DNA of 35,437 bases from the IMG/VR virus record IMGVR_UViG_3300024520_000031, positions 1-35,437 of that record; one strand, given 5' to 3'. Shown here piece after piece: positions 1 to 35,437 of the stretch (position 1 is its first letter; each line of letters starts with the position of its first letter). The notes under the pieces were generated by a model. That model had not been told where the DNA came from. It saw nothing but the letters and a program-made list of their open reading frames with translations, and searched no databases. Source of the stretch: a virus. A program made the translations under genes and the position numbers.

Positions 1-127
1 GGTGCTTTTGCTCACGAAATACAGGACGCCAGCTAATGACTATCAAACGATTTGAAGTAATGGAAGACCCAAGCTTTTCACATAATGGTGATACTTTTTA
101 CCTAGGCGATATCCGAAGCCATGAAGA
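1..127. repeat. Terminal overlap, left copy
   Basis: These 127 bases are repeated exactly at 35311-35437. The left copy starts inside the last codons of the 34978-35346 gene and runs into the 36-245 gene. This shows a circular contig opened at an arbitrary point. A length of 127 equals a common maximum assembly k-mer, so it is most likely an assembly overlap and not a biological terminal repeat. Confidence 0.95.
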
Positions 128-5490: not shown

Positions 5491-5558
5491 GGCCTCAGTG
5501 GGGCCAAAAAATACATACTAGCGGCGCTAGGATTTAATTATAAATCTTGGCGCGTTTT
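5491..5558 (+). promoter_or_regulatory. Hairpin-rich leader of capsid gene
   Basis: Three structures lie in this gap. The first is a 6-bp stem at 5491-5496/5500-5505 with an AGT loop. The second is a 5-bp stem at 5518-5522/5526-5530. The third is a 13-bp stem (two G-U pairs) at 5524-5536/5541-5553 with loop ATTA, followed by GTTTTG. The second and third overlap and exclude each other. The third looks like a weak intrinsic terminator, an mRNA 5' stabiliser or an RNase processing site. It ends 38 bases before the capsid ATG. Confidence 0.6.
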
Positions 5559-6543: not shown

Positions 6544-6577
6544 ATGGGTCTGGCTTATCGCTAGGCCCATTTTATTT
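6544..6577 (+). terminator. Intrinsic terminator after capsid gene
   Basis: The arms ATGGGTCT and AGGCCCAT pair (6544-6551/6563-6570), with G-U tolerance, and the stem can extend inward three more pairs to a TTATC loop. The stem is followed by TTTTATTT. This is the clearest Rho-independent terminator in the window. It would end or reduce transcription after the capsid gene. Confidence 0.82.
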
Positions 6578-18560: not shown

Positions 18561-18598
18561 TTGATGTAATTAAATACTTAGGTATATAATTACATCAA
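18561..18598 (+). promoter_or_regulatory. Early promoter embedded in inverted-repeat operator
   Basis: TTGATG (18561-18566) and TATAAT (18585-18590) are 18 bases apart. A perfect 12-bp inverted repeat, TTGATGTAATTA at 18561-18572 and its complement at 18587-18598, spans both boxes with a 14-base centre. A protein bound to either arm would cover the -35 or -10 box. The promoter drives the early operon starting at 18620. The neighbouring RHH protein is the obvious candidate ligand, making an autoregulatory loop. Confidence 0.8.
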
Positions 18599-18619: not shown

Positions 18620-18808
18620 ATGAAAAAAGAAGTATATAAAGGTCCGGGCAGACCGTTAATGGGTGAGGAAGGTCGCAAGCCGGTCCATGCGTTAGTTAAA
18701 CCTTCCACTATTGAGGCGTTAGATGCTTGGGGTCCATCTAGGGGTATTTGTATTGATAATCTCGTTGAGCGCGAAATAGAGCGTTTATACTATAACTCAA
18801 AGGGGTGA
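18620..18808 (+). CDS. Ribbon-helix-helix transcriptional regulator
   Basis: The 62-residue protein has a basic, flexible N-terminus (GPGRPLMGEEGRK), then a short strand PVHALVKPS (about 23-31). Two helices follow (STIEALDAWG; CIDNLVEREIERLY), the strand-helix-helix layout of Arc/CopG-type repressors, which bind DNA as dimers. It is the first gene after the palindromic early promoter, 21 bases past the right arm, with AAGGA upstream of its ATG. Autorepression of the early operon is inferred. It is unlike CI-type HTH repressors and does not by itself imply lysogeny. Confidence 0.65.
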   Translation: MKKEVYKGPGRPLMGEEGRKPVHALVKPSTIEALDAWGPSRGICIDNLVEREIERLYYNSKG

Positions 18809-20998: not shown

Positions 20999-21548
20999 TT
21001 CAAATAAGAAAGAATTCGCAATTTTATTTTATACAACTGGTGAGCTTTACGACAAATCGGTTAGTAAAGAATTGCTACGAATGTATTTTGGCATACTAAA
21101 AGAATTTTCTATTGATCAAATCAAATCAGGGCTAACAAAGCACGCATTAGACCCAAAACACGGTACATTCTTTCCAAAACCAGCCGACATAGTGCGAAAT
21201 ATCGACGGACAGCAACGATCAGCTACAGATAGGGCTTTGGTTGCATGGATGGAAGTTGAGGCCGCTATCGCCACCGTAGGCTCTTACGGAACGCTTAATC
21301 TAAAAGATAAGCAAGCACTGATGGCCGTTAAATCAATGGGAAGTTGGCAGCACCTTTGCGCTACTGATAGAAGTAAGCTTGCATTTAAACGGCAAGAATT
21401 TATAGCAAATTATAACGCGATAGAAAAAACGCCACTTGATAGCCTACCTGAAAGCTTACCCGGAATAAAGGAGTTGGAAAATCAAAGAAATTCAGGGCAG
21501 GGCGGCGCAGCAGGACTACTAAAGAAGCTTGATGAGAGAATAAATTGA
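20991..21548 (+). CDS. Helicase-loader-like replication protein (lambda P / DUF6475 type)
   Basis: The 185-residue protein starts with a helical domain (LYDKSVSKELLRMYFGILKEF), then HGTFFPKPADIVRNIDG (about 57-73), the most recognisable segment of phage replication P-like proteins. A second helical domain with a QHLCATDRSKLAFKRQEF stretch follows. It likely recruits the host replicative helicase to the origin defined by the upstream initiator. The order initiator then loader is as in lambda O-P. The stop overlaps the TTG start of the first methyltransferase. Confidence 0.68.
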   Translation: MNDSNKKEFAILFYTTGELYDKSVSKELLRMYFGILKEFSIDQIKSGLTKHALDPKHGTFFPKPADIVRNIDGQQRSATDRALVAWMEVEAAIATVGSYGTLNLKDKQALMAVKSMGSWQHLCATDRSKLAFKRQEFIANYNAIEKTPLDSLPESLPGIKELENQRNSGQGGAAGLLKKLDERIN

Positions 21549-21558
21549 TTAACTTAAT
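21535..21558 (+). repeat. 24-bp direct repeat at methyltransferase 1 start
   Basis: These 24 bases recur exactly at 22293-22316, 758 bases away. Each copy spans the end of one gene and the first four codons (TTG-ATT-AAC-TTA) of a methyltransferase. Recombination between copies would cleanly delete or exchange the first methyltransferase gene. Confidence 0.9.
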
Positions 21559-22306
21559 AAAAGATGATTGTTTAAATGCTATGGCAGGCATGGAAGATGG
21601 TTGTGTAGATTTAACCGTAACATCACCGCCATACGATAATTTAAGAACGTATAAAGACAGTCTAGAGTGGGGGGGGCATATTTGGAAGCCTATTTTAGAG
21701 CAGCTTTACAGAATTACAAAAGATGGTGGCGTTGTGGTGTGGGTTGTTGGGGATGCTACTATAAAAGGCAGCGAGACTGGCACGAGCTTTAAGCAGGCAT
21801 TGTTTGCTATGGAGTGCGGGTTTAACTTGCATGACACGATGATTTACCAAAAAGCCCAAGCGTGTTTCGGCAGTAATAAATGCTACTTGCAAGCTTTTGA
21901 GTATATGTTTATTTTTAGCAAGGGTATTCCCAGTGTATTGAATTTTATACGTGACCGACCAAACAAGCGTAGCGGCGTGGAAAGTATGGGTGCTGGCGGG
22001 TTGGGTGTTGATGGCAGCAAAGCCAAGAGAATAAAAAAAGAAATGGGCGCCACAGGTAAGCGTAAAAACGTCTGGGAGTACGGGGTAGGCGGCGGCAAAA
22101 CTGGACACCCCGCCGTTTTTCCTGAAAAGCTAGCCAATGACCACATTATTTCGTGGAGCAACGAAGGCGATACAGTGTTTGATCCCTTTATGGGTAGCGG
22201 CACAACTGGCAAGATGGCGAAACTTAACAAACGTGCCTTCATTGGAATAGAAAAGGTTGAAGAGTACTTTAAAATTGCACAAGATAGAATTAAGAGAATA
22301 AATTGA
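21545..22306 (+). CDS. Beta-class DNA methyltransferase, probably N4-cytosine
   Basis: The enzyme transfers a methyl group from S-adenosylmethionine to an exocyclic base amine. The catalytic motif IV, TSPPY, is at residues 26-30, and the AdoMet-binding motif I, DPFMGSGTTG, is near the C-terminus (213-222); this order is the beta class. SPPY is usual for m4C enzymes, although some m6A enzymes share it. It has 253 residues. The TTG start lies in a TTGA overlap with the loader gene. No restriction enzyme is adjacent, so it is an orphan, self-protective enzyme by inference. Confidence 0.88.
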   Translation: MINLIKDDCLNAMAGMEDGCVDLTVTSPPYDNLRTYKDSLEWGGHIWKPILEQLYRITKDGGVVVWVVGDATIKGSETGTSFKQALFAMECGFNLHDTMIYQKAQACFGSNKCYLQAFEYMFIFSKGIPSVLNFIRDRPNKRSGVESMGAGGLGVDGSKAKRIKKEMGATGKRKNVWEYGVGGGKTGHPAVFPEKLANDHIISWSNEGDTVFDPFMGSGTTGKMAKLNKRAFIGIEKVEEYFKIAQDRIKRIN

Positions 22307-22316
22307 TTAACTTAAT
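22293..22316 (+). repeat. 24-bp direct repeat at methyltransferase 2 start
   Basis: This is the second copy of the repeat at 21535-21558. It includes the last codons of methyltransferase 1 and the TTG start of methyltransferase 2, so both genes have identical translation-start surroundings. Confidence 0.9.
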
Positions 22317-23217
22317 GCTTGGCGATTGCCTTGAGAGAATGAAAGAGATACCAGATGGTAGTGTTGATATGGTTTTGACTGACCCGCCTTATGGTACGAT
22401 GAAAAATGCGCAGCTCGATGGGTATAAGAATAATAAAACAAGTTGGGATACGTTAAAAACAAGTTGGGATACGTTAATTGATCAAGAAAAAATGCTAGAA
22501 GAATGTAATAGAGTTTTACGAGTTAATGGATCACTACTACTATTTGCTCAAGACCCCTTTACGGGGGATTTAATGACAAAACAGCACGGAAACCTACCAT
22601 TTAGTTATAGAATGACATGGTTAAAAGATCATTTTGCCAATGCGTTAATTGCAAAAAAATCGCCTTTAAATTACACAGAAGATATATGTGTATTTTTTAA
22701 AAAGTATGACACGCTAAACCAACACTCTTTGCGTGAATACTCTAGGAAGCTAATTTCTGACAGCGATACAAACCTTAAAAAGATTAATGAAGACTTGGGA
22801 CATAGAAGGTTTGAGCATTTCGCTTACACTGATTCAACTCAATTTGGCTTATGCACTGAAAAAACTTATTTGCAGTTTTTAGATTTCTATAGAGTTAAAA
22901 AATTCAAACCTTACTCGGAGCTGGTTGAGATAAATAGACGCTTCGCTAGACGCTTCAACCTACCAGAAGGACAAAAGTTCAAACCTAATGTATTGCAATA
23001 CAAAAAAGATTACACAGGGCTACACCCAACACAAAAGCCCGTTGCTTTGCTTGAAGATTTAATCAAAACCTACACCAACGAAGGCGAAACGGTTTTAGAC
23101 TTTACAATGGGTAGCGGTACAACAGGCGTGGCTTGTAAGAACATGGGCCGCAGCTTTATTGGCATAGAACTAGATGAGGAATACTTCAAGATTGCACAAG
23201 ATAGAATTACAAGCTAA
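22303..23217 (+). CDS. Beta-class DNA methyltransferase, probably N6-adenine
   Basis: Motif IV is DPPY (27-30) and motif I is DFTMGSGTTG (266-275), again the beta order. DPPY points to adenine N6 methylation. The start TTG 22303 is chosen because the first residues (MINLMLGDC) fit the family and because it sits in the same TTGA overlap as the upstream enzyme. It has 304 residues, longer than enzyme 1 in the central target-recognition region. Residues 45-58 contain a tandem KTSWDTL duplication from a 21-base DNA duplication, just after motif IV. The C-terminus is clearly related to enzyme 1 (YFKIAQDRI in both). Confidence 0.9.
   Translation: MINLMLGDCLERMKEIPDGSVDMVLTDPPYGTMKNAQLDGYKNNKTSWDTLKTSWDTLIDQEKMLEECNRVLRVNGSLLLFAQDPFTGDLMTKQHGNLPFSYRMTWLKDHFANALIAKKSPLNYTEDICVFFKKYDTLNQHSLREYSRKLISDSDTNLKKINEDLGHRRFEHFAYTDSTQFGLCTEKTYLQFLDFYRVKKFKPYSELVEINRRFARRFNLPEGQKFKPNVLQYKKDYTGLHPTQKPVALLEDLIKTYTNEGETVLDFTMGSGTTGVACKNMGRSFIGIELDEEYFKIAQDRITS
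22435..22476 (+). repeat. 21-bp tandem duplication inside methyltransferase 2
   Basis: Two identical 21-base units (22435-22455 and 22456-22476) encode KTSWDTL twice, in frame. Related enzymes as I recall them have one copy followed by IDQ. It looks like a recent slippage event that the enzyme may tolerate, or that may change activity. Confidence 0.92.
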
Positions 23218-23252
23218 CGGCCTAGAAAGGCTTAAAAAATTAAGGGGTTAAT

Positions 23253-23801
23253 ATGGGTGATTTAATTAGTTCAGATTTAAAGGATGATATGAAAAATTCA
23301 TGGAGTACCGATTTGCGAGTGGTTAACGCGATGGATAGGGAGTTTGATTTTGATTTAGATGCGGCGGCGAATGACAGTAATCATAAATTTACCCCTTATC
23401 TAACAAAAGAAGATGACGCTTTAGCGGTTGATTGGAGTGAGATAGAACTTAGTTATAAAGGTAGTGAGAGCTTTGTTAAAACTGTTTGGATTAACCCGCC
23501 TTATGGCCGGGGAATGATTAAAAAATTCATGGGTAAATGTATTGAGCAAAAAGAAAAAGGCGTAACCAGTGTTTTATTGGTACCCGCAACGCTCGACGCT
23601 CAATGGTTGCCTATTCAGGAAATATCAGAAATAAGAATTATTACTGGTGGGAGATTGAGTTTTGCTCATCCGACAACGGGCAAAAAAATTGCCGGAAATA
23701 CTAAAGGGTCGATGTTTGTAATATTCAGACCGTCAAAAATGCCATGTACAATTAGATTGATTGACCGTGACGAGCTTATTAAATCAAACAAAGAAGATTA
23801 A
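23253..23801 (+). CDS. Phage Dam-type DNA N6-adenine methyltransferase
   Basis: The 182-residue protein matches the phage N-6-adenine methyltransferase family (PF05869 type). It has an N-terminal DSWxTP-like segment (SWSTDLRVVNAMDREFDFDLDAA), the catalytic VWINPPYGRG (about 75-84), then SVLLVPATLDAQWL and a TGGRLSFAHPTTGK loop. Such proteins are common in T1-like and other siphoviruses and often methylate GATC. A 35-base gap with AAGGGG precedes the ATG. It is the third methyltransferase in the block. Confidence 0.88.
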   Translation: MGDLISSDLKDDMKNSWSTDLRVVNAMDREFDFDLDAAANDSNHKFTPYLTKEDDALAVDWSEIELSYKGSESFVKTVWINPPYGRGMIKKFMGKCIEQKEKGVTSVLLVPATLDAQWLPIQEISEIRIITGGRLSFAHPTTGKKIAGNTKGSMFVIFRPSKMPCTIRLIDRDELIKSNKED

Positions 23802-23818
23802 CCAATAAAGGAAAGATA

Positions 23819-24127
23819 ATGTTAATAACGACAAATAAATCAAGTGATAAAACATGTGAGGCTTGTGGCTTAAATGGTGAAGCAATTAAAGTATCAAGTC
23901 AAACGGACGCTCAAAAGTATCACGGTTTGCATAGTTTTGTGATGTGGGCTTGTGATAGATGTTTAAGCAATCCACTAAAAGAAGTGATTAACGCGCCCCC
24001 GCAACGCGAGTCACAACAGGATTTAATAGTTAGGCTGATGGATGAATACAAGGAAATGGGGGATAGTTGCGTGTCTGCAAAGGAAGTATTAAATGATATT
24101 TTAAAAATAATAGAGGCTGGCGAATGA
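23819..24127 (+). CDS. Zinc-knuckle hypothetical protein, 102 aa
   Basis: CEAC (13-16) and CDRC (45-48) form a plausible zinc ribbon in the first half. The second half is helical and acidic. It lies between the Dam-type gene and a small acidic gene, with AAGGA upstream of the ATG and an ATGA overlap downstream. No specific family is recognised. A nucleic-acid or protein-binding role is possible. Confidence 0.66.
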   Translation: MLITTNKSSDKTCEACGLNGEAIKVSSQTDAQKYHGLHSFVMWACDRCLSNPLKEVINAPPQRESQQDLIVRLMDEYKEMGDSCVSAKEVLNDILKIIEAGE

Positions 24128-24426
24128 ATAATTATATAGTTATAGACGAGAAAGCATATAAAGTCGCAGAGGCAGACGAGTTTTTTAGATCAATCAATGC
24201 GTGGCTTGAAGATGATGAAACGCCAACAAGCTTGGGGCTACTTGAAACTATAGAGGGTCACTTAGTAATGGTCGATAAATCGTATGAAAAGCAGGAAGAT
24301 ATAGTTTTAGGTGAGAACGAGAGAGTGTTTAAGTTTGAAAGCGTACAGATAGTTCAAAAAGTTGTCGATAGCTGCGTTATTAAGCCGGGGTTTGTAACAG
24401 TCGATCATCCTAACTTATGGCATTAA
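24124..24426 (+). CDS. Acidic hypothetical protein, 100 aa
   Basis: The start is ATGA, overlapping the zinc-knuckle gene. The protein is acidic, mixed alpha/beta, with no membrane segment. Small acidic proteins in phage early regions sometimes mimic DNA or inhibit host enzymes. That is only a possibility here, suggested by composition and by the neighbouring modification genes. Confidence 0.62.
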   Translation: MNNYIVIDEKAYKVAEADEFFRSINAWLEDDETPTSLGLLETIEGHLVMVDKSYEKQEDIVLGENERVFKFESVQIVQKVVDSCVIKPGFVTVDHPNLWH

Positions 24427-24462
24427 TCAAACAAAGAGAGCAGTTAAATGAAATTAGAATGT

Positions 24463-24542
24463 GCTTTAGGGACAGAGCAAGGGACAATCTAGGATGCTTT
24501 TTTAGAAGTTTGTCCTTTGAGGTGCGCTTTAGGGACAGAGCA
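24463..24542 (+). repeat. REP-like repeat pair with hairpin potential
   Basis: The 17-base word GCTTTAGGGACAGAGCA occurs at 24463-24479 and 24526-24542. Each copy can form a 6-bp stem around an AGGGAC loop. Between them GGACAA (24482-24487) can pair with TTGTCC (24509-24514), enclosing a T-rich loop. The word resembles the GGGACAGA-type palindromic repeats mobilised by REP-associated (IS200-like) transposases in gammaproteobacteria, from memory. No transposase is present. The whole gap 24427-24579 has no convincing gene, only a 14-codon frame at 24448. Confidence 0.5.
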
Positions 24543-24579
24543 TTTAAGATAACTAATAACTTTATATAGGTAATAAACA

Positions 24580-24765
24580 ATGATAAGTAATATTTTTAAA
24601 ACATTAATTAAGATTTTATTGTTACCAATAACTATTCCATTACTGGCAATAACTGCCGCAATTGAGTACGCAACAGATAGTGACTGGGAGTTTTGGTTTA
24701 TGTTTAATCGCACAGTTATTAATTTGTTACCGTTTATTGGTAAAGAAATCAACGACAATAGGTAA
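24580..24765 (+). CDS. Small membrane protein, 61 aa
   Basis: One long hydrophobic segment (about 8-30, ILLLPITIPLLAITAAI) and a weaker second (about 38-54) predict an inner-membrane protein. It lies just after the REP-like repeats and before a secreted protein gene. The two may form a small membrane/periplasm module, for example in exclusion of other phages, but this is inferred only from topology and position. Confidence 0.6.
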   Translation: MISNIFKTLIKILLLPITIPLLAITAAIEYATDSDWEFWFMFNRTVINLLPFIGKEINDNR

Positions 24766-24812
24766 TACCATATTGCTAACACCAGCAAAATGGCTAAACG
24801 AGGTAATAAACG

Positions 24813-25274
24813 ATGAAGATATTAATATTAACAATAGCAATACTAATGAGTGGTTCGGCGTTGGCAGATTGGCGCGTATATTCAAGCAATGACGAATTAA
24901 CCGATAAATCAGTTTTGATAGTCTCAACAGTTGCAGTTTCAAGCCATCATCCGTATAGGCCAAGGCTAATGATTCGGTGCGTCGATAATCAGAATCTAAG
25001 TGTTTTTATCATCGGCGGTTATTTTAGAAAATACATTGATGCTAAATATCGAATTGATAAAGGCGAAGTAGTGCCAATCCTCGCAAAAAGATCGACTGAT
25101 AGAAAGTCTTTGTTTTTAAAAGGTGGGCCAATGGTTAATTTTGTCGATGCGTTAAAAAGTAGCAGTCGGTTAGTTGTCAGGACGAACGATAAGAGAATTG
25201 TAACTTATAAGTTTAAAACTAAAGGTTTGCGGGCAGCATTAAAGAATAGAAATGATCAATGTTTTAACAGTTAG
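24813..25274 (+). CDS. Secreted VasI-like protein
   Basis: The 153-residue protein has a clear Sec signal peptide (MKILILTIAILMSGSALA, cleavage before DW). The mature part starts DWRVYSSNDELTD and contains MIRC followed later by a C-terminal QC, plus SLFLKG and a TKGLRAAL segment. This pattern fits the VasI (type VI secretion-associated) and related phage periplasmic family, whose two Cys probably form a disulfide. In a phage early region such a protein could block superinfection or modify the envelope. Its true role is unknown. Confidence 0.66.
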   Translation: MKILILTIAILMSGSALADWRVYSSNDELTDKSVLIVSTVAVSSHHPYRPRLMIRCVDNQNLSVFIIGGYFRKYIDAKYRIDKGEVVPILAKRSTDRKSLFLKGGPMVNFVDALKSSSRLVVRTNDKRIVTYKFKTKGLRAALKNRNDQCFNS

Positions 25275-25284
25275 GCAATAAACG

Positions 25285-25332
25285 ATGAGTGATAAATGGA
25301 TAAGTGTTGACGATGAATTGCCAAAAGTTTAA
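25285..25332 (+). pseudogene. Truncated remnant of a DUF551-like gene
   Basis: A 15-codon frame reads MSDKWISVDDELPKV and stops. The word WISV-x-D-x-LP is the characteristic N-terminus of DUF551 proteins common in enterobacterial phages, normally followed by GQ-x-VLVY. The remainder is missing, and the cytosine methyltransferase gene begins 18 bases later, so the methyltransferase may have replaced it. Confidence 0.55.
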
Positions 25333-25349
25333 CAGCATAGGGGAAGATA

Positions 25350-26213
25350 ATGAATGTGCTTAGTTTGTTTGATGGAATGTCGTGCGGTCAAATCGCTTTA
25401 GAAAGGGCGGGAATAAAAGTTGATAACTATTATGCTAGCGAGATTAAAAAACACGCCATAGCAACCACGCAGGCAAACTACCCAAGCACGATACAAGTTG
25501 GTGACGTTACCAAGATAAACGCAAGCGATTTACCGAAAATAGACTTGCTGATAGGCGGATCGCCTTGTCAAGATTTCAGTCGCGCCCACTCAGAGAGAAA
25601 AGGTTTGGCTGGCGAAAAGTCTAGTTTGTTTTTTGAGTATGTTCGCATACTTAACGAGCTAAAAGCGTTAAACCCTGATTTATTGTTTTTGTTAGAAAAT
25701 GTGATCATGGATGATTATGGTTATTCGTTCATATCTAACGAGCTTAATTGTGACCCTGTAAGAATTAATAGCGAGTTGGTATCTGGGCAATTAAGGGATA
25801 GACTTTACTGGACAAATATTAAACCATATTCAGTTGATTTTTTTGGGCGATTAGTCTCAAACATAAAACCGCCAAAAAACAAACTAATTCAACTAAGCGA
25901 TATTTTGACCGATGGATATACCGATAGGAGAAAAAGCCGCGCGTTGCTAGAAAGCGACAGCCGGCCTCTAGCAAGTCAAGATAAGATGTGGCATAGATAT
26001 AAAAGTGCAGGCTTCACAACGGTTATATACAATGATAAATCCTTAAATTGGGAGAAGGGCCTTAGATACCTAAATCAAACAGAGTTAGAGCGCCTACAAA
26101 CGGTTCCGAAGGGGTACACAAAAAACTTGGCAAGAAACCACGCGGCGTGTTTATTAGGTGATGGTTGGACGGTGGACGTTATAGCGCACATATTTAAAGG
26201 GTTAAATAGGTAA
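25350..26213 (+). CDS. DNA C5-cytosine methyltransferase (Dcm/DNMT3-like)
   Basis: Motif I SLFDGMSCGQIAL (5-17) binds AdoMet. Motif IV GGSPCQDFS (69-77) holds the catalytic Cys73. Motif VI is LLENV (114-118) and motif VIII is QLRDR (147-151). Motif IX/X is ELERLQTVP and LLGDGWTVDVIAHI near the end. At 287 residues it is compact, leaving only about 70 residues for target recognition, as in phage and DNMT3-like enzymes. AGGGGAAG precedes the ATG. It is the fourth methyltransferase of the phage and the only C5 type. Confidence 0.95.
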   Translation: MNVLSLFDGMSCGQIALERAGIKVDNYYASEIKKHAIATTQANYPSTIQVGDVTKINASDLPKIDLLIGGSPCQDFSRAHSERKGLAGEKSSLFFEYVRILNELKALNPDLLFLLENVIMDDYGYSFISNELNCDPVRINSELVSGQLRDRLYWTNIKPYSVDFFGRLVSNIKPPKNKLIQLSDILTDGYTDRRKSRALLESDSRPLASQDKMWHRYKSAGFTTVIYNDKSLNWEKGLRYLNQTELERLQTVPKGYTKNLARNHAACLLGDGWTVDVIAHIFKGLNR

Positions 26214-26218
26214 TAGAT

Positions 26219-26509
26219 ATGAGTGATAAATTAAACAAAACACTAAAAGAGCGCAGCGAGAAGTACGGAAGCTTTACGGGTTATTGTAAATATGCAAGCC
26301 AATTAAAATTAGTTATTGAGGAATCCCGATTAAATGGAAGTATTGACGCGCTCCACGCCGAGGCGCTTGACATGATATTTAGCAAGATAGCTAGGATATT
26401 GAATGGCGATCCAGATTACGTGGATAACTGGCATGATATCGCGGGCTATGCTCAATTGGTCGAGAATGAAATAATTAAGGGTAAATCGAATGATCGACAT
26501 ACAGCATAA
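26219..26509 (+). CDS. DUF6378-type phage protein
   Basis: The 96-residue protein contains RSEKYGSFTGYCKYASQLK, then HAEALDMIFSKIARILNGDP and YVDNWHDIAGYAQLV. Those three blocks define the phage family I know as DUF6378. Function in the family is unknown; conserved His/Asp/Glu residues suggest a possible metal- or nucleotide-related role. It starts five bases after the methyltransferase stop and overlaps the next small gene by 20 bases. Confidence 0.8.
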   Translation: MSDKLNKTLKERSEKYGSFTGYCKYASQLKLVIEESRLNGSIDALHAEALDMIFSKIARILNGDPDYVDNWHDIAGYAQLVENEIIKGKSNDRHTA

Positions 26510-26645
26510 AAAAGCCTGTTTGCGTAGACATTACGAGAATATGACCAAGGGTAGAGTGATGTCGCTAAGAAGCCAATTATCAAAAAAGGACTACTTGAGA
26601 CTGATAAAAAGAGTCAATTACGCGAAGAAATATAAGTTTATATAA
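26490..26645 (+). CDS. Small very basic protein, 51 aa
   Basis: The frame from ATG 26490 codes for a protein with about 16 Lys/Arg in 51 residues, starting MIDIQHKKACLRRHYENMTK. It is preceded by AAGG with suitable spacing within the previous gene. The next promoter's TATAAT overlaps its stop. It may bind nucleic acid; nothing more can be said. Confidence 0.5.
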   Translation: MIDIQHKKACLRRHYENMTKGRVMSLRSQLSKKDYLRLIKRVNYAKKYKFI

Positions 26646-26646
26646 T
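26618..26646 (+). promoter_or_regulatory. Promoter before HNH gene
   Basis: A perfect TATAAT at 26641-26646 lies 17 bases after TTACGC (26618-26623), which is a poor -35 box. Transcription would start near 26653, at the 5' edge of the folded leader B. The distance from box to leader is the same as for leader A. Confidence 0.55.
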
Positions 26647-26652
26647 ATAGCT

Positions 26653-26727
26653 TGTTGAATCCGGCTAGATTTAGCGATCGAAAGCCTGAACCCTAAACAG
26701 GTCGCCGGTATCTCTTCATTTAGGGTT
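26653..26727 (+). ncRNA. Structured 5' leader RNA, copy B
   Basis: The 3' strand CAGGTCGCCGG (26698-26708) can pair stepwise with CCTG (26685-26688), GCGA (26674-26677) and CCG (26661-26663). The nine-base loop AACCCTAAA (26689-26697) is perfectly complementary to TTTAGGGTT (26719-26727). The second pairing would tie up an AGGG ribosome-binding word before an ATG at 26730. Ordered words shared with leader A (20241-20317): GGCTAG, TCGAAA, CCTGA, TATCTCTT, TTTAGGG. Confidence 0.5.
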
Positions 26728-26747
26728 GAATGCTTAGGGTATTTGCC

Positions 26748-27233
26748 ATGATTACACAGCAAGAAGTTAAAAGTTTATTTAATTACAATCCCCATACTGG
26801 AATATTAACAAATAAAATCAAGCGAGGCTCGAATGGTTTTAAGGGGGCGCACGTCGGATCTAACTGTAAAGAGTACCTCGTTACCACTATTAACCGAAAA
26901 CGGTACAAGGTTCATAGGGTTATTTATCTTTTTATTTATGGGTATATTCCTCAAATAGTCGACCACAAAGATGGAAACAAGCAAAACAATAAAATAGAAA
27001 ACCTTAGACCGGCGACGCCGTCTGAAAACCAAAGAAATAAAGGTATAAGCAGAAATAACACCAGCGGGGTTAAAGGGGTTACATGGTATAAAAACTGTAA
27101 ATTATGGAGAGCGCAGATAAGAGTAAATGGCAAGCGTATACATCTTGGTTATTTCAAATCTATTGATAGAGCAAGCGTAATAATGGAAGAAGCAAGAAAG
27201 GTGCACCATAAAGAGTTCGCCAATAACGGGTAA
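26748..27233 (+). CDS. Free-standing HNH endonuclease with AP2 domain
   Basis: The nuclease core is VHRVIY (H56), IVDHKDGNKQNNKIENLRP (D72-H73, N80/N81, N85), a beta-beta-alpha metal motif. Residues about 104-155 form an AP2-type DNA-binding domain (SGVKGVTWYKNCKLWRAQI and GKRIHLGYF). I start at ATG 26748, after TTAGGGT, because the family begins MITQQEV-like; an in-frame ATG at 26730 would add six residues. Such genes behave as homing endonucleases in phages. No intron or interrupted gene is visible nearby. Confidence 0.88.
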   Translation: MITQQEVKSLFNYNPHTGILTNKIKRGSNGFKGAHVGSNCKEYLVTTINRKRYKVHRVIYLFIYGYIPQIVDHKDGNKQNNKIENLRPATPSENQRNKGISRNNTSGVKGVTWYKNCKLWRAQIRVNGKRIHLGYFKSIDRASVIMEEARKVHHKEFANNG

Positions 27234-27259
27234 AGGTTATAAGTTTACTTAGATAACGC

Positions 27260-27287
27260 TTGCATTAGCTAATGATTGCGTTATAAT
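27260..27287 (+). promoter_or_regulatory. Promoter before 27337 gene
   Basis: TTGCAT (27260-27265) and TATAAT (27282-27287) are 16 bases apart in the 103-base gap after the HNH gene. Transcription would start near 27294, at the tandem repeat. It probably drives the recombination operon downstream. Confidence 0.7.
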
Positions 27288-27295
27288 AGCTACAA

Positions 27296-27333
27296 CTTGA
27301 ACGAAAGGCGAAAACTTGAACGAAAGGCGAAAA
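27296..27333 (+). repeat. 19-bp tandem repeat in an early leader
   Basis: Two perfect copies of a 19-base unit (27296-27314, 27315-27333), each carrying GAAAGGCGAAAA, lie between the promoter and ATG 27337. The unit contains an AAGG Shine-Dalgarno-like word. The second copy is correctly spaced for the ATG; the first would be a decoy or spare site. Confidence 0.9.
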
Positions 27334-27336
27334 CAA

Positions 27337-27471
27337 ATGAAAGGATTATTTCAGAGAGTAGAAGGTAGAATTTGCGAGTGTAAATATAATAAAGGGCATG
27401 GCGAGGCATGGTTTAATAGGTTGAATAAAAAGTACGGAGAAAAGCTAGAAAATGCTTCTAAAAGAATTTAA
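27337..27471 (+). CDS. Small basic protein, 44 aa
   Basis: The frame begins MKGLFQRVEGRICECKYNKG and is rich in Lys, Gly and Arg, with a C-x-C pair. It is the first gene after a good promoter and a duplicated ribosome-binding region, and it overlaps the next gene by 20 bases. It is likely real. The function is unknown. Confidence 0.55.
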   Translation: MKGLFQRVEGRICECKYNKGHGEAWFNRLNKKYGEKLENASKRI

Positions 27472-27679
27472 AAATAAATATTTCAGAACCGGCAAAGAGT
27501 TAGCTTTGGCTATGGATATATCAGAGGTACAGCTAATCAATATGATTAACAAATACAACATTGAAATAGTTGAAACTAAAAGCGGTGATTGGGTAACTTT
27601 AAGCAAAAATACTAAGACCATTAAAAAAGAATCAATAAAACAAGTGAGTGTGCTGACGAAAAACGCACATCGCCATTAA
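27452..27679 (+). CDS. Small helix-turn-helix-like protein, 75 aa
   Basis: FRTGKELALAMDISEVQLINMINKYNIEI (about 11-39) has the spacing of a helix-turn-helix with a short turn after MDIS. It is followed by a two-strand wing (VETKSGDWVTLS) and a basic tail. This is compatible with a small winged-helix DNA-binding regulator, perhaps of the recombination operon. The family is not recognised with certainty. Confidence 0.58.
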   Translation: MLLKEFKNKYFRTGKELALAMDISEVQLINMINKYNIEIVETKSGDWVTLSKNTKTIKKESIKQVSVLTKNAHRH

Positions 27680-27750
27680 ATAAAAGAAAGCGCGGTAAAG
27701 TTCATCACTAGAGGTTAACAGGCAACTAATTTAAACAAAAGGTTAATAAC

Positions 27751-27972
27751 GTGGAATACATAGCAATCACAGTATTAGTACCAGTCAACGAAATATGTAC
27801 AGAAGGCAGTATTGTAAAAACAATTCCTGAGACATCGACCGACCCCAAAGAATCCTTTGTTGATACTTTAGAGTTTGGATTGCCGTGGTGTGAGTATGAT
27901 GTTGTAGCCGTTGCTGATGGTAGCGAAGAATCGCTGGATGATTTAATTATAGAACGGAGCAAAGAGATATAA
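27751..27972 (+). CDS. Acidic hypothetical protein, GTG start, 73 aa
   Basis: The start is GTG 27751, with AAGG 8-11 bases upstream. The protein is acidic with an N-terminal strand (EYIAITVLVPVNE), a middle loop with PETSTDPKESF and a C-terminal acidic helix. Its TAA overlaps the next ATG. The function is unknown. The 71-base gap before it shows nothing distinctive. Confidence 0.6.
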   Translation: MEYIAITVLVPVNEICTEGSIVKTIPETSTDPKESFVDTLEFGLPWCEYDVVAVADGSEESLDDLIIERSKEI

Positions 27973-28073
27973 TGGCGAAAATAAAGAATATTGTTAGCGT
28001 AACGCTAGCAGTAATACTGTCGGTAGTGGTTATATTTTTAATGATGGCCGAACCTTTTTGGTGGGCGGTATGA
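27972..28073 (+). CDS. Single-pass membrane peptide, 33 aa
   Basis: The frame opens with TAATG and closes with an ATGA overlap on the next gene, tight coupling that argues it is expressed. After MAKIKN it has a hydrophobic stretch of about 20 residues (IVSVTLAVILSVVVIFLMMA) and ends FWWAV. The predicted topology is N-in with a short periplasmic tail. The function is unknown. Confidence 0.55.
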   Translation: MAKIKNIVSVTLAVILSVVVIFLMMAEPFWWAV

Positions 28074-28270
28074 GAGCAATAGAAAGGGCGCTTAGCGATG
28101 CCGAGATACAAGAAATGGTCATTGCTAGAATGTGGATAGATGGCGATTGTTCAGAGTGGGATGCGAGGCGCTCTTGTAGTATCCAGCAGTTAGATTTTAA
28201 AAAGGTTGAAGAATTCCACGGCCAATTTTATCACGAACAAGAATGCAAAAGCGCAGGGGTTAAAATATGA
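28070..28270 (+). CDS. Hypothetical protein, 66 aa
   Basis: I start at ATG 28070 in the ATGA overlap; an upstream GTG at 28058 would add four residues. The protein is helical and charged, with Trp-rich DGDCSEWDARRSCS and a C-terminal YHEQEC. It contains three Cys and two His that could bind zinc. It overlaps the ERF gene start by four bases (ATGA). Confidence 0.6.
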   Translation: MRAIERALSDAEIQEMVIARMWIDGDCSEWDARRSCSIQQLDFKKVEEFHGQFYHEQECKSAGVKI

Positions 28271-28824
28271 GTTTAGGTGAGTTATTAAGTAAAATTCAAC
28301 AATCTTTAAAGGTTCCAAAAACCCGAGAAAATAAATTCGGCGGTTATTTTTATAGGAATCTTGAAGATATAATGGAAGCGGTGAAGCCTTTACTTGGAGA
28401 GGGTTATCTAGTATTTTCGGATAAGGTTGAGCAAATAGGCGATCAACTTTACGTTGCGGCCACTGTCACGCTTTACTTGGACCGTGAAGCTTTGTCGGCC
28501 ACTGGGTACGCTAGGGAGACAATGGATAAAAAGAAATACGATTCGTCCCAGTTAACGGGGTCGGCCAGCTCGTATGCTCGAAAACAGGCGGCTAACGGGT
28601 TGTTCTGTCTTAATGATATTAAAGATCCTGATACTACAAATAATCAGGAATCTAAGCCAGAAAAAGAAGAAATTAATTGGTACAACGATTTCGATAGTCA
28701 AAAAGATTGGATGATTAAGCAGATAGCCAACGGATCAACGGCTGATAAAATTATAAATTCACTAAAATCTAAAGGCTACGCATTAAGTAAAAAAGTAAGC
28801 GAGCAAATAAAGGGGTTGGATTAA
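28267..28824 (+). CDS. erf: ERF-family single-strand annealing recombinase
   Basis: The 185-residue protein matches the P22 Erf family: ELLSKIQQSLKVPKTRENKFGGYFYRNLEDI near the N-terminus, then VTLYLDREAL and the signature TGSASSYARKQAANGLFCLNDIKD (about 96-119). It would anneal complementary single strands in phage recombination, working with the SSB encoded 0.6 kb downstream. The C-terminal 60 residues are a separate, charged helical region. It is followed by the Gp157 gene through a TAATG overlap. Confidence 0.92.
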   Translation: MSLGELLSKIQQSLKVPKTRENKFGGYFYRNLEDIMEAVKPLLGEGYLVFSDKVEQIGDQLYVAATVTLYLDREALSATGYARETMDKKKYDSSQLTGSASSYARKQAANGLFCLNDIKDPDTTNNQESKPEKEEINWYNDFDSQKDWMIKQIANGSTADKIINSLKSKGYALSKKVSEQIKGLD

Positions 28825-29318
28825 TGAGATTATACGAGTTAGCAGATACATATCAAAAAGCATTAATTGATTTATCAGAGATTGAAGGGTTAGACGATCA
28901 AACAATAGCCGATACTCTTGAGGGTTTAGAAGGTGAGCTTATTGATAAAGCAAAAAATGTAGCAGCCTACTTTCAAAACTTAGACTCTGATGTCATTCAA
29001 CTTAAAGATGCAGAATCAAGAATAAAGGCCAGAAGAATTGCGAAAGAAAAAGAGAGTCAAGGACTAAAGGATTATCTGCGGTATAATATGCAGATATCTA
29101 ATATTAATAAGATTGAATGCCCAGAGTTTAAAGTAACTCTTGGAAAGCCTAGCCAAATCGTAGAGGTTATCGATGTTGATATGTTAGACATTGAAATGGT
29201 AACGGTAAAAACAACGAAAACAGCAAACAAGGCGCTAATAAAAGCAATAATAAAAGGTGGTCAAGATGTACTGGGAGCTAAGCTGGTTGATGGTAAGGCA
29301 AGGCTAACTATTAAATAG
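28824..29318 (+). CDS. Siphovirus Gp157-family protein
   Basis: The 164-residue protein fits the Gp157 family (PF05565 type). It has MRLYELADTYQKAL, an acidic helix, AESRIKARRIAKEKESQGLKDYL (about 64-86), then strands with CPEFKVTLGKPSQIVEV and a C-terminal GAKLVDGKARLTI. Family members accompany ERF or RecT genes; a role in phage resistance or recombination has been suggested, but the mechanism is not known. Its position between ERF and SSB is typical. Confidence 0.88.
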   Translation: MRLYELADTYQKALIDLSEIEGLDDQTIADTLEGLEGELIDKAKNVAAYFQNLDSDVIQLKDAESRIKARRIAKEKESQGLKDYLRYNMQISNINKIECPEFKVTLGKPSQIVEVIDVDMLDIEMVTVKTTKTANKALIKAIIKGGQDVLGAKLVDGKARLTIK

Positions 29319-29326
29319 GTGAAGTA

Positions 29327-29470
29327 ATGGCAACAGCAAAAACAAGAGAATCACAATCTCAAGAACGAGCAAGGCAAAAACGCATTGACGGCGTTGAAGA
29401 TACAAATACATTTAACGGGGTCATTAAAGCCCACGTAAAAGCAACCGGGAGTTTAAGAAATGGCAAGTAG
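29327..29470 (+). CDS. Small basic protein before SSB, 47 aa
   Basis: The ATG at 29327 follows GGTGAAG, and the 47-codon frame ends 11 bases inside the SSB gene. The product is rich in Lys/Arg/Gln/Ala ([19 protein letters not shown]) and fills the gap between Gp157 and SSB. It has no known family. It could be a small DNA-binding factor or simply couple SSB translation. Confidence 0.5.
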
Positions 29471-29939
29471 AGGCGTAAATAAAGTTATCCTTGTAGGTAA
29501 TTTGGGCCAAGACCCGGAGGTCCGACATACTCCCGCAGGTCAAATTATCACAACAATAAGTATCGCAACCAGTGAAAGCTGGAAAGACAAAAATAGCGGT
29601 CAAACGCAAGAAAAAACTGAGTGGCATAGAGTTGTATTCTTTGGAAAGCTGGCAGAAATCGCAGGGGAGTATCTAAAGAAAGGCTCTCAGGTTTATGTTG
29701 AAGGGAAATTACAAACCCGCAAATGGCAGGATAAGCAGGGCCAAGATAGGTATACAACCGAGGTTATAGTCGATGGATTTGACGGTAAAATGCAAATGAT
29801 AGGCGGGAAAGGTGAAGAAAATAAACCTAATCCACAGCAAGCGCCACAACCACAACAAAGGAAAAAACCCGAGTCTCAAAACGAGCAGCAGGGCGGTATA
29901 GACTTCGATAGTTCGTTTGATGATGATATACCTTATTAA
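29460..29939 (+). CDS. ssb: Single-stranded DNA-binding protein
   Basis: Residues 1-108 form the OB fold: [20 protein letters not shown], then [43 protein letters not shown] and the [10 protein letters not shown] strand. A Gln/Pro-rich linker follows. The acidic tip is [12 protein letters not shown]. The last residue is Tyr where nearly all bacterial SSBs have Phe (DDDIPF), which may weaken or alter binding to host repair partners. The 159-residue length is standard. It works with ERF in annealing and with replication forks. Confidence 0.95.
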
Positions 29940-29948
29940 ATTAAATCA

Positions 29949-29979
29949 CTCGTCACTTACTAGCAAATGACGAGCTATT
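29949..29979. promoter_or_regulatory. Palindromic repeat, copy 1
   Basis: A 26-base near-palindrome (29949-29974) with 7-bp perfect arms CTCGTCA/TGACGAG is centred on CTAG. It is followed by CTATT. The 31-base element aligns with 30680-30710, sharing CGTCACTTACTAG exactly and about 23 of 31 positions overall. The rest of the gap up to 30077 shows no gene. It could be an operator for a dimeric regulator, or a weak terminator after ssb. Confidence 0.6.
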
Positions 29980-30077
29980 TCTAATTGTGGTTAGTGGTAG
30001 GTGGTTATCGAACCCATTTATTAACCCGCATGAAACCCACTAGATTAGCTATCTATAAATATTGAGAGGGCAAGAAA

Positions 30078-30476
30078 ATGAAACAAACTCAATTAATAAG
30101 GTTTGGCGATTATACCGATATTCAGAAGTCAAGAGCGGCCGAGTTCATACTTAACTTATGTATTGACCAAAAAAACGAATACAGAATTACGGTTGAGAAA
30201 TACAAAGAAAATAAAACCTCTGAGCAATTAGGTTATTATTGGACAGCAATCATTCGAGTTTGTATGGATTGGCAAGGGTTAGCTAAAGATGACGCTGATG
30301 TCTGGTTAAAGGAAAAATGCGCTATCCCTAGAATTATCACAATAATGGGCGAAACATTCGAAATTCGTGCGTCGATTGCTAAGATGAAAATTGACGAAAT
30401 GTCACGGTACATTGACGATTGCGTAAATTTCATGGGTACTCATGGGCAATATACACCGCCACCAACGAGGCGGTAA
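30078..30476 (+). CDS. NinB-like recombination protein
   Basis: The 132-residue protein has an RITVEKYKENKTSEQLGYYW segment (about 36-55), then VCMDWQGLAKDDADVWLKEK and ITIMGETFEIRASIAKMKIDEM (about 93-114), ending in a Tyr/Pro-rich tail. The layout resembles NinB (lambda Orf) type recombination mediators that bind SSB and single-stranded DNA. Its neighbours are SSB and NinG, as in lambdoid nin regions. Similarity is partial, so the call is tentative. A TATAAA word at 30053 is a weak -10 candidate. Confidence 0.5.
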   Translation: MKQTQLIRFGDYTDIQKSRAAEFILNLCIDQKNEYRITVEKYKENKTSEQLGYYWTAIIRVCMDWQGLAKDDADVWLKEKCAIPRIITIMGETFEIRASIAKMKIDEMSRYIDDCVNFMGTHGQYTPPPTRR

Positions 30477-30478
30477 TA

Positions 30479-30658
30479 ATGAAATCAGAATCTCAATATA
30501 TCCTAACTAGAATGGACTGCGACTTAAAGAGAGTTATGGAGTTGTGTATTTTAGCCAAACTAGATAGCAATGACGTTCGACGGGTCGGGACCAGCTTAAA
30601 CGCATTATCTAAAGAGTTAAAGCTTTTCACAAGGCAGGTAAAGCGGGCAAAAGTATAG
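30479..30658 (+). CDS. Small helical protein, 59 aa
   Basis: I start at ATG 30479, two bases after the previous stop; the longer frame from 30419 would run 58 bases back into the NinB-like gene and is less likely. The protein is helical, with a basic C-terminus (LFTRQVKRAKV). It is encoded between the NinB-like gene and the second palindromic repeat. The function is unknown. Confidence 0.55.
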   Translation: MKSESQYILTRMDCDLKRVMELCILAKLDSNDVRRVGTSLNALSKELKLFTRQVKRAKV

Positions 30659-30665
30659 GCGCCTA

Positions 30666-30717
30666 CAATATTCAATAGCACGTCACTTACTAGTAAGTGT
30701 CAAACTATTGAATATTG
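30666..30717. promoter_or_regulatory. Palindromic repeat, copy 2, in a long hairpin
   Basis: The core CACTTACTAGTAAGTG (30684-30699) is a perfect 16-base palindrome. It is enclosed by 13-bp inverted-repeat arms at 30666-30678 and 30705-30717. The core plus flanks align with the element at 29949-29979. The hairpin is followed by A-rich, not T-rich, sequence, so it is not a + strand intrinsic terminator. It sits 20 bases before the NinG start and may be an operator or cruciform. Confidence 0.65.
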
Positions 30718-30737
30718 AATGAAAAAAAGGTGTGACA

Positions 30738-31343
30738 ATGGATAGAAAAGAAGTAAAAACCAAACCATGCCCTATTTGTGGAGATACCAATTTTAAAAAG
30801 TGGTCGACAACACAAAGAGTCTGCGGGGCTATAGTTTGCGCTTTGGAGTGGAACAGGCAAAAAGACAGGCAAAAAACAGCAAAAAAAGCCAGAGCCGATC
30901 TAGTCGCATTCAAAGGAAATGATTTATCTTGGCAGCACAAGCAAACTCAAAAATCATTTAATAAACTTAGAAAGCTGCAAGAGTTTAAATGGTTTAGTGA
31001 TCGAGGGTTAGAACCAGTATGTATCTCATGCGGAGGTAAAAACATGGATTGGTGCTGCGGTCATTATAAAACGGTTGGCTCTCAAGGTTCGTTACGGTAC
31101 GATTACGACAACACGAAATTACAATGTAATCGATATTGTAATAAAGGATTGAGCGGAAATATCAACGGCAATCGAACCAGCCGAGGGTATTTAATAGGGC
31201 TGCATGATAGATTTGGCAAAGAGGAAGCAGAAAGAATAATACTTTATTGCTCAAAGGATAATGTTAAAAAGTGGACTTGTGAAGAATTAGGAGAAATGCG
31301 GAAGTTATTCAATAGGGAGATTAGAGAGCTAGAATCAATTTGA
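30738..31343 (+). CDS. ninG: NinG (Rap) recombination nuclease
   Basis: I start at ATG 30738; a GTG at 30732 is too close to the AAGG ribosome-binding site. The protein matches NinG/Rap: KPCPICG (C11, C14) and RVCGAIVC form an N-terminal zinc region, followed by a Lys-rich helix. The second half has CISCGGKNMDWCCGHYKTVGSQGSLRYD and then LQCNRYCNKGLSGN, an HNH-like zinc-bound nuclease. Lambda Rap cleaves Holliday junctions and D-loops. At about 200 residues it is standard. Its TGA overlaps the next promoter's -35 box. Confidence 0.92.
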   Translation: MDRKEVKTKPCPICGDTNFKKWSTTQRVCGAIVCALEWNRQKDRQKTAKKARADLVAFKGNDLSWQHKQTQKSFNKLRKLQEFKWFSDRGLEPVCISCGGKNMDWCCGHYKTVGSQGSLRYDYDNTKLQCNRYCNKGLSGNINGNRTSRGYLIGLHDRFGKEEAERIILYCSKDNVKKWTCEELGEMRKLFNREIRELESI

Positions 31344-31368
31344 ACAGAAGGCATAAGTTCATTATAAT
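31340..31368 (+). promoter_or_regulatory. Promoter of lysis genes
   Basis: TTGAAC (31340-31345) and TATAAT (31363-31368) are exactly 17 bases apart. Transcription would start near 31375, about 25 bases before the first lysis-region gene. The -35 box overlaps the ninG stop. Confidence 0.75.
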
Positions 31369-31399
31369 AAGTATAACTTTTAATCTAAAATAGAATATT

Positions 31400-31738
31400 A
31401 TGGAATACGCCGAATTATTACATTATCTAGCAGAGGGGTTAATATTAATTCTCGCTTTTAATGTTAGAGTGCTTTTTTTACGCATAGATAAAAACGAGGA
31501 TAAACACGTCGAGCTAACAAAGGATATGATTAGAGCACATAAAGGATTTGAGGCACAGCTTGCTAAATTGAGAGAAGATATGCACCGTGAACTAAAGGCG
31601 GTATATTCTCACTCTGATGGATTAGTGGAGAAATTACGAAACGAGATTAACGATCAAGGTCGGGCAATACGCGCAGAAATGCGGGAGAATTCCGACAAAG
31701 TGCAAGAGTTAATCATTAAATCGGTCCATCCAAAATGA
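31400..31738 (+). CDS. Membrane-anchored coiled-coil protein, 112 aa
   Basis: One transmembrane segment (about 8-28, LAEGLILILAFNVRVLFL) is followed by a long charged helix (about 30-105), probably a coiled coil facing the cytoplasm. It has little ribosome-binding sequence and follows a promoter closely. As first gene of the lysis block it could be a holin partner, an antiholin or an exclusion protein. No family is recognised. It overlaps the DUF5675 gene by four bases (ATGA). Confidence 0.6.
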   Translation: MEYAELLHYLAEGLILILAFNVRVLFLRIDKNEDKHVELTKDMIRAHKGFEAQLAKLREDMHRELKAVYSHSDGLVEKLRNEINDQGRAIRAEMRENSDKVQELIIKSVHPK

Positions 31739-32115
31739 TACGACTAAGGCGGTGGGGCAACCCAGATTGCACAGTGGGGCGGTTATTCTTTGAGAATTTT
31801 CAATGCTTCACGCTCGAAAAGCCTTGGTTAGACAATCAAGAAAACATTTCTTGCATTCCCGTCGGGGAATATTGCTATTATAGCCGCACAAGCACAAGAA
31901 ACGGCAAAGTCCTACAATTGGAAAACGTAGAAGACCGTACTTCAATACAAATTCATGCCGGTAATTACATTAACCAAACTCAAGGTTGCATACTTGTAGG
32001 CGATTCGATTAGATTATTAAATAATGATAAAATACCGGATGTGGCGAACTCACGAAATACTTTAACCAATTTATTGGAATTGGCCGGAAAGAGTGGAGTT
32101 ATTCAAATAAGATGA
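31735..32115 (+). CDS. DUF5675 protein, candidate endolysin
   Basis: The 126-residue protein shows the DUF5675 signature: VGRLFFENFQCFTLEKPW (14-31), IPVGEY (41-46) and IQIHAGNYINQTQGCILVGD (71-90). The H74...C85 arrangement with GC resembles the catalytic His-Cys of L,D-transpeptidase folds. No lysozyme, amidase or other standard endolysin is seen in the genome. It sits between a membrane protein and a holin-like gene, so it is the best candidate for the peptidoglycan-acting lysis enzyme. It has no signal peptide, so release would need a holin. Confidence 0.72.
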   Translation: MIRLRRWGNPDCTVGRLFFENFQCFTLEKPWLDNQENISCIPVGEYCYYSRTSTRNGKVLQLENVEDRTSIQIHAGNYINQTQGCILVGDSIRLLNNDKIPDVANSRNTLTNLLELAGKSGVIQIR

Positions 32116-34977: not shown

Positions 34978-35346
34978 ATGGCTAAAAGAATACCAGACTC
35001 TAATATTGATTTAATGTTAGATATCACAGAAGGGGATAGCGTTCATGTTTGTAGCGCAGAACCCACAACTTACACCGAAGCGGTAACTACTTTTAATTTA
35101 GCAACCGAAGCCATAACAGGCGGCAATTATACCAAAGCTGATGGCGATGTCAGTGGACGAAAAAATACTTTAACTCCGGGGACGGCTGCGAGTATCACAG
35201 CAACCGGAACAGCCAACCATGTGGCAGTAACCACTTTATCAGGAACAGTACTTGAATTAGTAACGACTTGTACACCACAGGCGCTAACTTCGGGCGGGAC
35301 CGTTGATATTGGTGCTTTTGCTCACGAAATACAGGACGCCAGCTAA
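34978..35346 (+). CDS. Small virion protein, 122 aa
   Basis: The protein opens AKRIPDSNIDLMLDITEGDSVHVCSAEP and continues with Thr/Ala/Gly-rich strands. This is a pattern I associate with short conserved structural proteins near phage fibre or capsid genes. An AAGGAG ribosome-binding site lies 10 bases upstream. In the circular genome it is followed directly, by a TAATG overlap, by the 36-245 gene. Confidence 0.66.
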   Translation: MAKRIPDSNIDLMLDITEGDSVHVCSAEPTTYTEAVTTFNLATEAITGGNYTKADGDVSGRKNTLTPGTAASITATGTANHVAVTTLSGTVLELVTTCTPQALTSGGTVDIGAFAHEIQDAS

Positions 35347-35437
35347 TGACTATCAAACGATTTGAAGTAATGGAAGACCCAAGCTTTTCACATAATGGTG
35401 ATACTTTTTACCTAGGCGATATCCGAAGCCATGAAGA
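35311..35437. repeat. Terminal overlap, right copy
   Basis: This is identical to bases 1-127. It contains the end of the 34978-35346 gene and the first 92 bases (35346-35437) of the 36-245 gene, which is cut by the window end. Remove one copy to obtain the 35,310-bp circle. Confidence 0.95.

Follow-up and report, generated by a model that had tools for sequence, protein, structure and literature searches.

Two related palindromic elements in the recombination gene cluster of a phage genome resemble operator-like sites

What role could be played by two related palindromic elements that lie on either side of a ninB-like gene, just ahead of ninG, in the recombination gene cluster of a phage? The window analysed here is the whole of IMG/VR virus record IMGVR_UViG_3300024520_000031 (35,437 nucleotides), whose first 127 bases recur exactly at the record's end (1-127 = 35311-35437), so that it probably represents the complete genome, its ends overlapping. 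The selection of open reading frames is restricted to the plus strand (65 ORFs of at least 40 codons, covering 94.7% of the genome), and all nine minus-strand ORFs of at least 90 codons overlap plus ORFs. Among phage records, those nearest to the terminase come from phages of Vibrio and Pseudoalteromonas, with an identity of about 59%.

The region runs, in order, through ERF, Gp157, a 47-codon ORF, ssb, a first element (copy 1), ninB, a small ORF, a second element (copy 2) and ninG, followed by genes that we read as of lysis type, one of them with a DUF5675 match. The ERF, Gp157, SSB and NinG products pass their Pfam cut-offs. Copy 1 is preceded by ssb (29460..29939, plus strand; Pfam PF00436, E 1.5e-40). 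Between the copies lie a divergent gene for a NinB/Orf-like recombination mediator (30078..30476, plus strand; PHROG 72, E 3.2e-10), whose product scores 20.4 bits against the Pfam NinB model, under the 23.8 cut-off, and has no tblastn match at 1e-5 in phage records, and a small ORF (30479..30658, plus strand) with no Pfam match and, searched from codon 30485, no PHROG match; its ATG at 30479 was assigned by reading, the automated ORF list placing the start at a TTG at 30419. The gene ninG, for a Rap-like endonuclease, occupies 30738..31343 on the plus strand (Pfam NinG, E 8.8e-22; PHROG 171, E 7.7e-29), its frame starting at GTG 30732 in the automated list. From the erf start to the ninG start only two gaps are 45 nt or longer, measuring 138 and 73 nt, and both contain an element, in agreement with the sequence-only reading, an earlier description of this DNA, which had placed the elements in the largest gaps of the recombination module.

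According to PMC4118853, the ninR module of lambda carries orf/ninB and rap/ninG. The present locus resembles that module in having ninB upstream of ninG, with proteins that match the family models (NinB under the Pfam cut-off), and differs from it in the high divergence of ninB and in the extra ORF and copy 2 gap that precede ninG. In three other loci (L008, L009 and L012), ninG follows its upstream neighbour either with an overlap or after a gap of 2-11 nt; that neighbour is named NinB in L012 and is unnamed in L008 and L009.

Copy 1 (29943..29980) is an imperfect, CTAG-centred dyad with 19-bp half-arms in the ssb-ninB gap (dyad score 11). Copy 2 (30666..30717) is a 52-base nested dyad with an interrupted middle (dyad score 18), in which a perfect CTAG-centred palindrome of 16 bases (30684-30699) lies inside perfect 13-bp arms (30666-30678 and 30705-30717), exactly as previously described. 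The kinship of the two elements also held, 31 of 40 bases (78%) being identical between 29940-29979 and 30670-30709 at an offset of 730, although the coordinate pairs first given for them (29949-29979 and 30680-30710) were mutually off by one. Both contain the left half-site CGTCACTTACTAG on the plus strand, at 29951..29963 in copy 1 and 30681..30693 in copy 2. The copies stand in direct orientation around ninB and the small ORF and, as dyads, align in inverted orientation as well.

The similarity between the two gaps (17.5) was equalled in none of 2000 dinucleotide shuffles of both gaps, the maximum being 12. When 16 of the 18 gaps in the gap list were compared, these two formed the best-matching pair (17.5 direct, 18.5 inverted; 10.5 for the next pair). 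The dyad score of copy 2 was reached in 0 of 200 genome shuffles (shuffle maximum 13), that of copy 1 was matched by 44 of 200 and does not exceed chance alone, and a perfect palindrome of 16 bases or longer appeared in 117 of 200 shuffles, which is not unusual by itself. What is significant is therefore the pair and the 52-base nesting, and not the perfect palindrome. The four best dyads of the genome (both copies, 18561-18598 and 27253-27284) all fall in non-coding gaps of the plus-strand ORF selection.

Read from the centre outwards, the four half-sites of copies 1 and 2 give the consensus CTCGTCACTTACTAG, with 7 of the first 13 positions invariant in all four half-sites and the remaining 6 kept in three of four, so that the elements possess the repeated half-sites with dyad symmetry that characterize operators. 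At positions 3, 6, 9, 11, 12 and 13, one half-site deviates and its partner retains the consensus letter; the Watson-Crick pair is lost at all six, with 0 compensating changes in the inner 13 pairs. Since letters persist where pairing breaks, uncompensated, half-sites read by a protein are favoured, and we take this comparison of just two copies as weakly favouring a protein-binding dyad over a conserved plus-strand hairpin. In the outer part, copy 2 has 13 perfect pairs (14-26) and copy 1 retains pairs 16-19, pair 19 being the sole two-sided change with pairing kept (A-T to C-G).

Our preferred reading, at a probability of roughly 0.4, is that the two dyads are operator-like sites for one dimeric protein, located in gaps of a same-strand cluster and modulating transcription of ninB-orf-ninG. 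It builds on what is directly observed of the dyads, their kinship, their position and their half-site consensus, and we arrive at it because the kinship exceeds chance, the half-site letters are kept, the best dyads lie in gaps, and one of these dyads, at 18561, contains a promoter match. Under such a scheme, erf, gp157, the 47-codon ORF, ssb, ninB, orf and ninG would form one operon; a single dimeric DNA-binding protein, encoded by the phage or its host, would bind both dyads; and the bound dyads would modulate transcription through ninB-orf-ninG. Small putative DNA-binding proteins of the phage are encoded at 18620-18808, 27452-27679 and 29327-29470. The outer arms of copy 2 are not accounted for by a single dimer site, and these perfect arms probably contribute, in addition, a hairpin in the RNA where the ninG message begins. 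If the elements are bound by a regulator, ninB-ninG would come under separate control inside a recombination gene cluster.

In phages, operators are imperfect dyads to which small repressors or activators bind as dimers. The two elements resemble them as imperfect intergenic dyads with a half-site consensus common to two sites of the same gene cluster, and depart from them in that no promoter was found at either site and that copy 2 has long perfect outer arms. Of the three roles that the sequence-only reading had proposed, operators are the best supported, by the half-site consensus and the kept letters; against them stands the lack of any plus-strand sigma-70-like promoter match over copy 1 or copy 2 in a sigma-70-type scan. 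The only promoter match overlapping either copy is a weak one on the minus strand, at copy 2 (30738-30711). Allowing up to 3 mismatches, the 13-mer CGTCACTTACTAG has 14 matches in the genome, consisting of the 4 half-sites and 10 others with 3 mismatches each, the latter to be compared with a chance expectation of 6.2 (sd 2.4). No further strong copy of the 13-mer was found in the genome, so that none of the regulator promoters has a clear operator of this kind.

The dyad at 18561-18598 has 17-nt arms that are 94% complementary and contains the promoter match TTGATG-18-TATAAT; it precedes a 62-codon ORF that is ribbon-helix-helix-like by reading, with no Pfam or PHROG match, and is possibly an autoregulated early promoter. 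Its arrangement suggests that dyads of this phage can coincide with promoters, and lends weak support to the operator reading because promoter matches occur genome-wide at shuffle level (41 vs 41.2 and 50 vs 50.7). The other gap dyad, at 27253-27284, runs into TATAAT. Beyond it, at 27289-27326, stand two 19-nt repeats in tandem that end in ACTTGAACGAAAG; the stretch 27253-27326 has no entry in the promoter scan. Downstream of ninG, in the gap before the lysis-type genes (31340-31389), overlapping plus- and minus-strand promoter matches (10/12 each) mark a possible late promoter.

The main rival to operators is a role as RNA, chiefly for copy 2, in which the elements would be stem-loops of the plus-strand message serving, where one gene adjoins the next, its processing, its stability or the insulation of translation, much as RNase III sites do in phage operons; we consider it possible, though less probable than the operator reading. 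Irregular hairpins of RNase III type occur in phage polycistronic mRNAs, as at the early sites of T7. Copy 2 resembles them in lying between genes and in its nested stem, which an internal loop interrupts, and it closely precedes a ribosome-binding site, stopping 10 nt short of the AGG (30728-30730) of the likely ninG site. The folding energy of its plus-strand RNA is -20.1 kcal/mol (z -6.4), a value that 0 of 200 shuffles reached, and this stable fold would be expected to form just upstream of the ninG ribosome-binding site. Copy 1 departs from such hairpins in its weakness on the transcribed strand, the matching 66-nt frame reaching only -9.8 kcal/mol (z -1.4), which 20 of 200 shuffles equalled or bettered, and the stretch 29939-30077 as a whole being unremarkable (z -0.3), even if the copy 1 region attains -14.9 on the plus strand in a different 60-nt frame. 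The inner pairs also differ between copies, with no compensation beyond pair 19 of the outer part. When 60-nt stretches of both strands were ranked genome-wide, the plus reading of copy 2 fell outside the best 24 and its minus reading came fifth. A described RNA family was rejected as an identity for the elements, Rfam giving no match up to E 1 in 29300-31000.

Both copies fold better as minus-strand RNA (-22.6 kcal/mol, z -5.2 for copy 2; -17.6 kcal/mol, z -4.0 for copy 1). All five transition-type mismatches within the 19 pairs are A.C on the plus strand, hence G.U on the minus, and 4 of the 6 broken inner pairs become G.U in minus-strand RNA; with so few cases, this asymmetry toward the minus strand is suggestive at most. 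Together with the better folds, it is the reason for considering that the structured form could be the minus strand, either in a transcript antisense to ninG-ninB that ends at copy 1 or as a bottom-strand single-stranded hairpin for SSB/NinB/NinG, which we regard as improbable.

The same strand bears on termination. The sequence-only reading had stated that the elements do not look like intrinsic terminators, which is borne out for copy 2, unlisted as such on either strand; for copy 1, the scan lists a terminator-like site in the minus-strand reading, with a 12-pair stem and the tail GATTTAATTT. On the plus strand copy 1 forms a 7-bp stem followed by CUAUUUCUAAUU. Copy 1 could accordingly be a weak, possibly bidirectional terminator after ssb, with copy 2 as a related relic, an explanation that we judge unlikely: no minus-strand gene that it could serve was identified, the longer minus-strand ORFs all overlapping plus ORFs as given above, and the scan finds no more terminator-like sites in this genome half than shuffling would give (13 vs 12.6 expected). 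Elsewhere in the genome, terminator-like hairpins at 5524-5553 and 6544-6570 flank a 312-codon ORF (5592-6530) that, by its position, is probably the major capsid gene.

A shared function in recombination was the remaining theme of the sequence-only reading, which had proposed a cruciform substrate for NinG or a recombination hotspot. NinG matches were present in 16 loci, 15 of which had upstream DNA (only 147 nt in one), and none of these 15 testable loci has a dyad score of at least 11 or the 13-mer with up to 2 mismatches upstream of ninG, the best values being a dyad score of 8 and a 13-mer with 3 mismatches. After ssb, the dyad is absent from all 4 loci with enough DNA, out of 5 (best score 6), and among the loci examined, ssb and ninG matches never occurred together. 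Close relatives sharing the gene order of this phage were not found. A cruciform or single-strand hairpin on which NinG, or the SSB/NinB machinery, acts would agree with the elements adjoining ssb, ninB and ninG, and with the folding of both copies as single-stranded DNA, which beats shuffles (z -2.7 to -6.7; 0 to 2 of 200 as good). Their absence upstream of ninG in all 15 testable loci argues against it and leaves the cruciform proposal without evidence. Moreover, Rap/NinG is described in PMC4118853 as a DNA branch-specific endonuclease, and for this reason NinG would presumably not need a particular sequence. We hold this explanation to be the least probable by far.

The elements could also be relics of a module-exchange border, such as a duplicated linker imported with a ninB cassette, or mark recombination joints; their direct orientation either side of ninB and the small ORF is compatible with this. 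The sole NinB relative found (74% identity; L003, the same contig as L104, IMGVR_UViG_3300022690_000657) sits among different neighbour genes, which points in the same direction. Similarity to that relative is, on the other side, confined to ninB at this locus: within window 26001-32000, L003 shares DNA similarity over the ninB body (30094-30452) and one fragment (26332-26485), stopping short of the elements. No element lies around its ninB (the ninG start there was placed by reading), and the core is missing from the entire 42-kb contig even when up to 3 mismatches are allowed. In the terminase relatives (84, 77 and 66%), the stretches compared contain nothing similar to window 26001-32000. 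In the lambdoid nin region, boundary sequences lie at gene borders; the elements are similar to these as a short repeat at gene borders of a nin-type region, and dissimilar in their strong dyad symmetry and in not being found in other phages. Because they were not found in other phages, there is no sign of shared foci for exchange, and the hotspot proposal finds no support, given the different neighbours of the only NinB relative found and the limits of its DNA similarity. Border relics are in our view slightly less likely than a terminator. A terminator, a module-border relic and a NinG substrate all rank as less likely than the operator and RNA hairpin readings, and a cruciform substrate, a telomere and a shared recombination hotspot lack support.

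The core scan covered 93 of 95 loci, L001 and L002 (the window itself) being excluded. When up to 3 mismatches are allowed, the 16-mer occurs in L004 (2 mismatches) and, with 3 each, in L010, L035 and L045; the 13-mer, allowed up to 1 mismatch, occurs in L004 (0) and in L087 and L089 (1 each, identical sequence), and the 26-mer in L004 alone, with 5 mismatches. Dyad scores of at least 12 are found in 7 of the 93 loci (L013, L014, L025, L035, L040, L042 and L046), all of which lack the core sequence; a strong dyad in itself does not therefore set this phage apart. In viral contigs, from which records very close to the window may have been withheld, two patterns of the element core returned 0 matches each and the loosest third pattern 5 scattered ones (L099-L103), none in a contig with a NinG or NinB match; these overlap stop-to-stop open frames of at least 90 codons in L099, L101 and L103, cover the last 9 bases of such a frame in L100, and touch none in L102. 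The species genomes contained 1 exact match, which falls within an open frame in a Bacilli MAG; a repeat of REP/BIME type, or another host genomic repeat, would be expected in many copies in a host genome. Phage records matched the elements at E of at least 4 only, and plasmid records had no match to copy 2. The database matches are loose or chance hits in scattered places.

Among the papers listed in our literature search, which covered nin-region boundaries, NinG and NinB, hairpins between phage genes, and inverted repeats close to ssb or ninG, no title or abstract opening describes such elements. The elements are absent from all relatives that could be examined. They look like regulatory sites or RNA hairpins and, as a whole, like a trait private to a single phage lineage that answers no long-standing question; most probably they are private elements with an ordinary type of regulatory role.

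Two further identities were considered and rejected. A protelomerase telomere-resolution palindrome was discarded as PF16684 finds nothing in the record, a model that matches 1 of 14 control genomes. Integron attC sites have the core site motif GTTRRRY, which by reading is absent from both strands of the gaps 29940-30077 and 30659-30731.

Two observations concern other parts of the genome. Four methyltransferase-type genes lie within 21545-26213, namely two N6/N4 methylases, one of Dam type and one of C5-cytosine type (Pfam families, assigned to genes by reading). Near the record's start, positions 1-84 of L093, a relative, are identical to window 44-127 (84 nt) within a full matching stretch (44-943) of 79.8% identity, the identical part being a conserved region upstream of the terminase gene.
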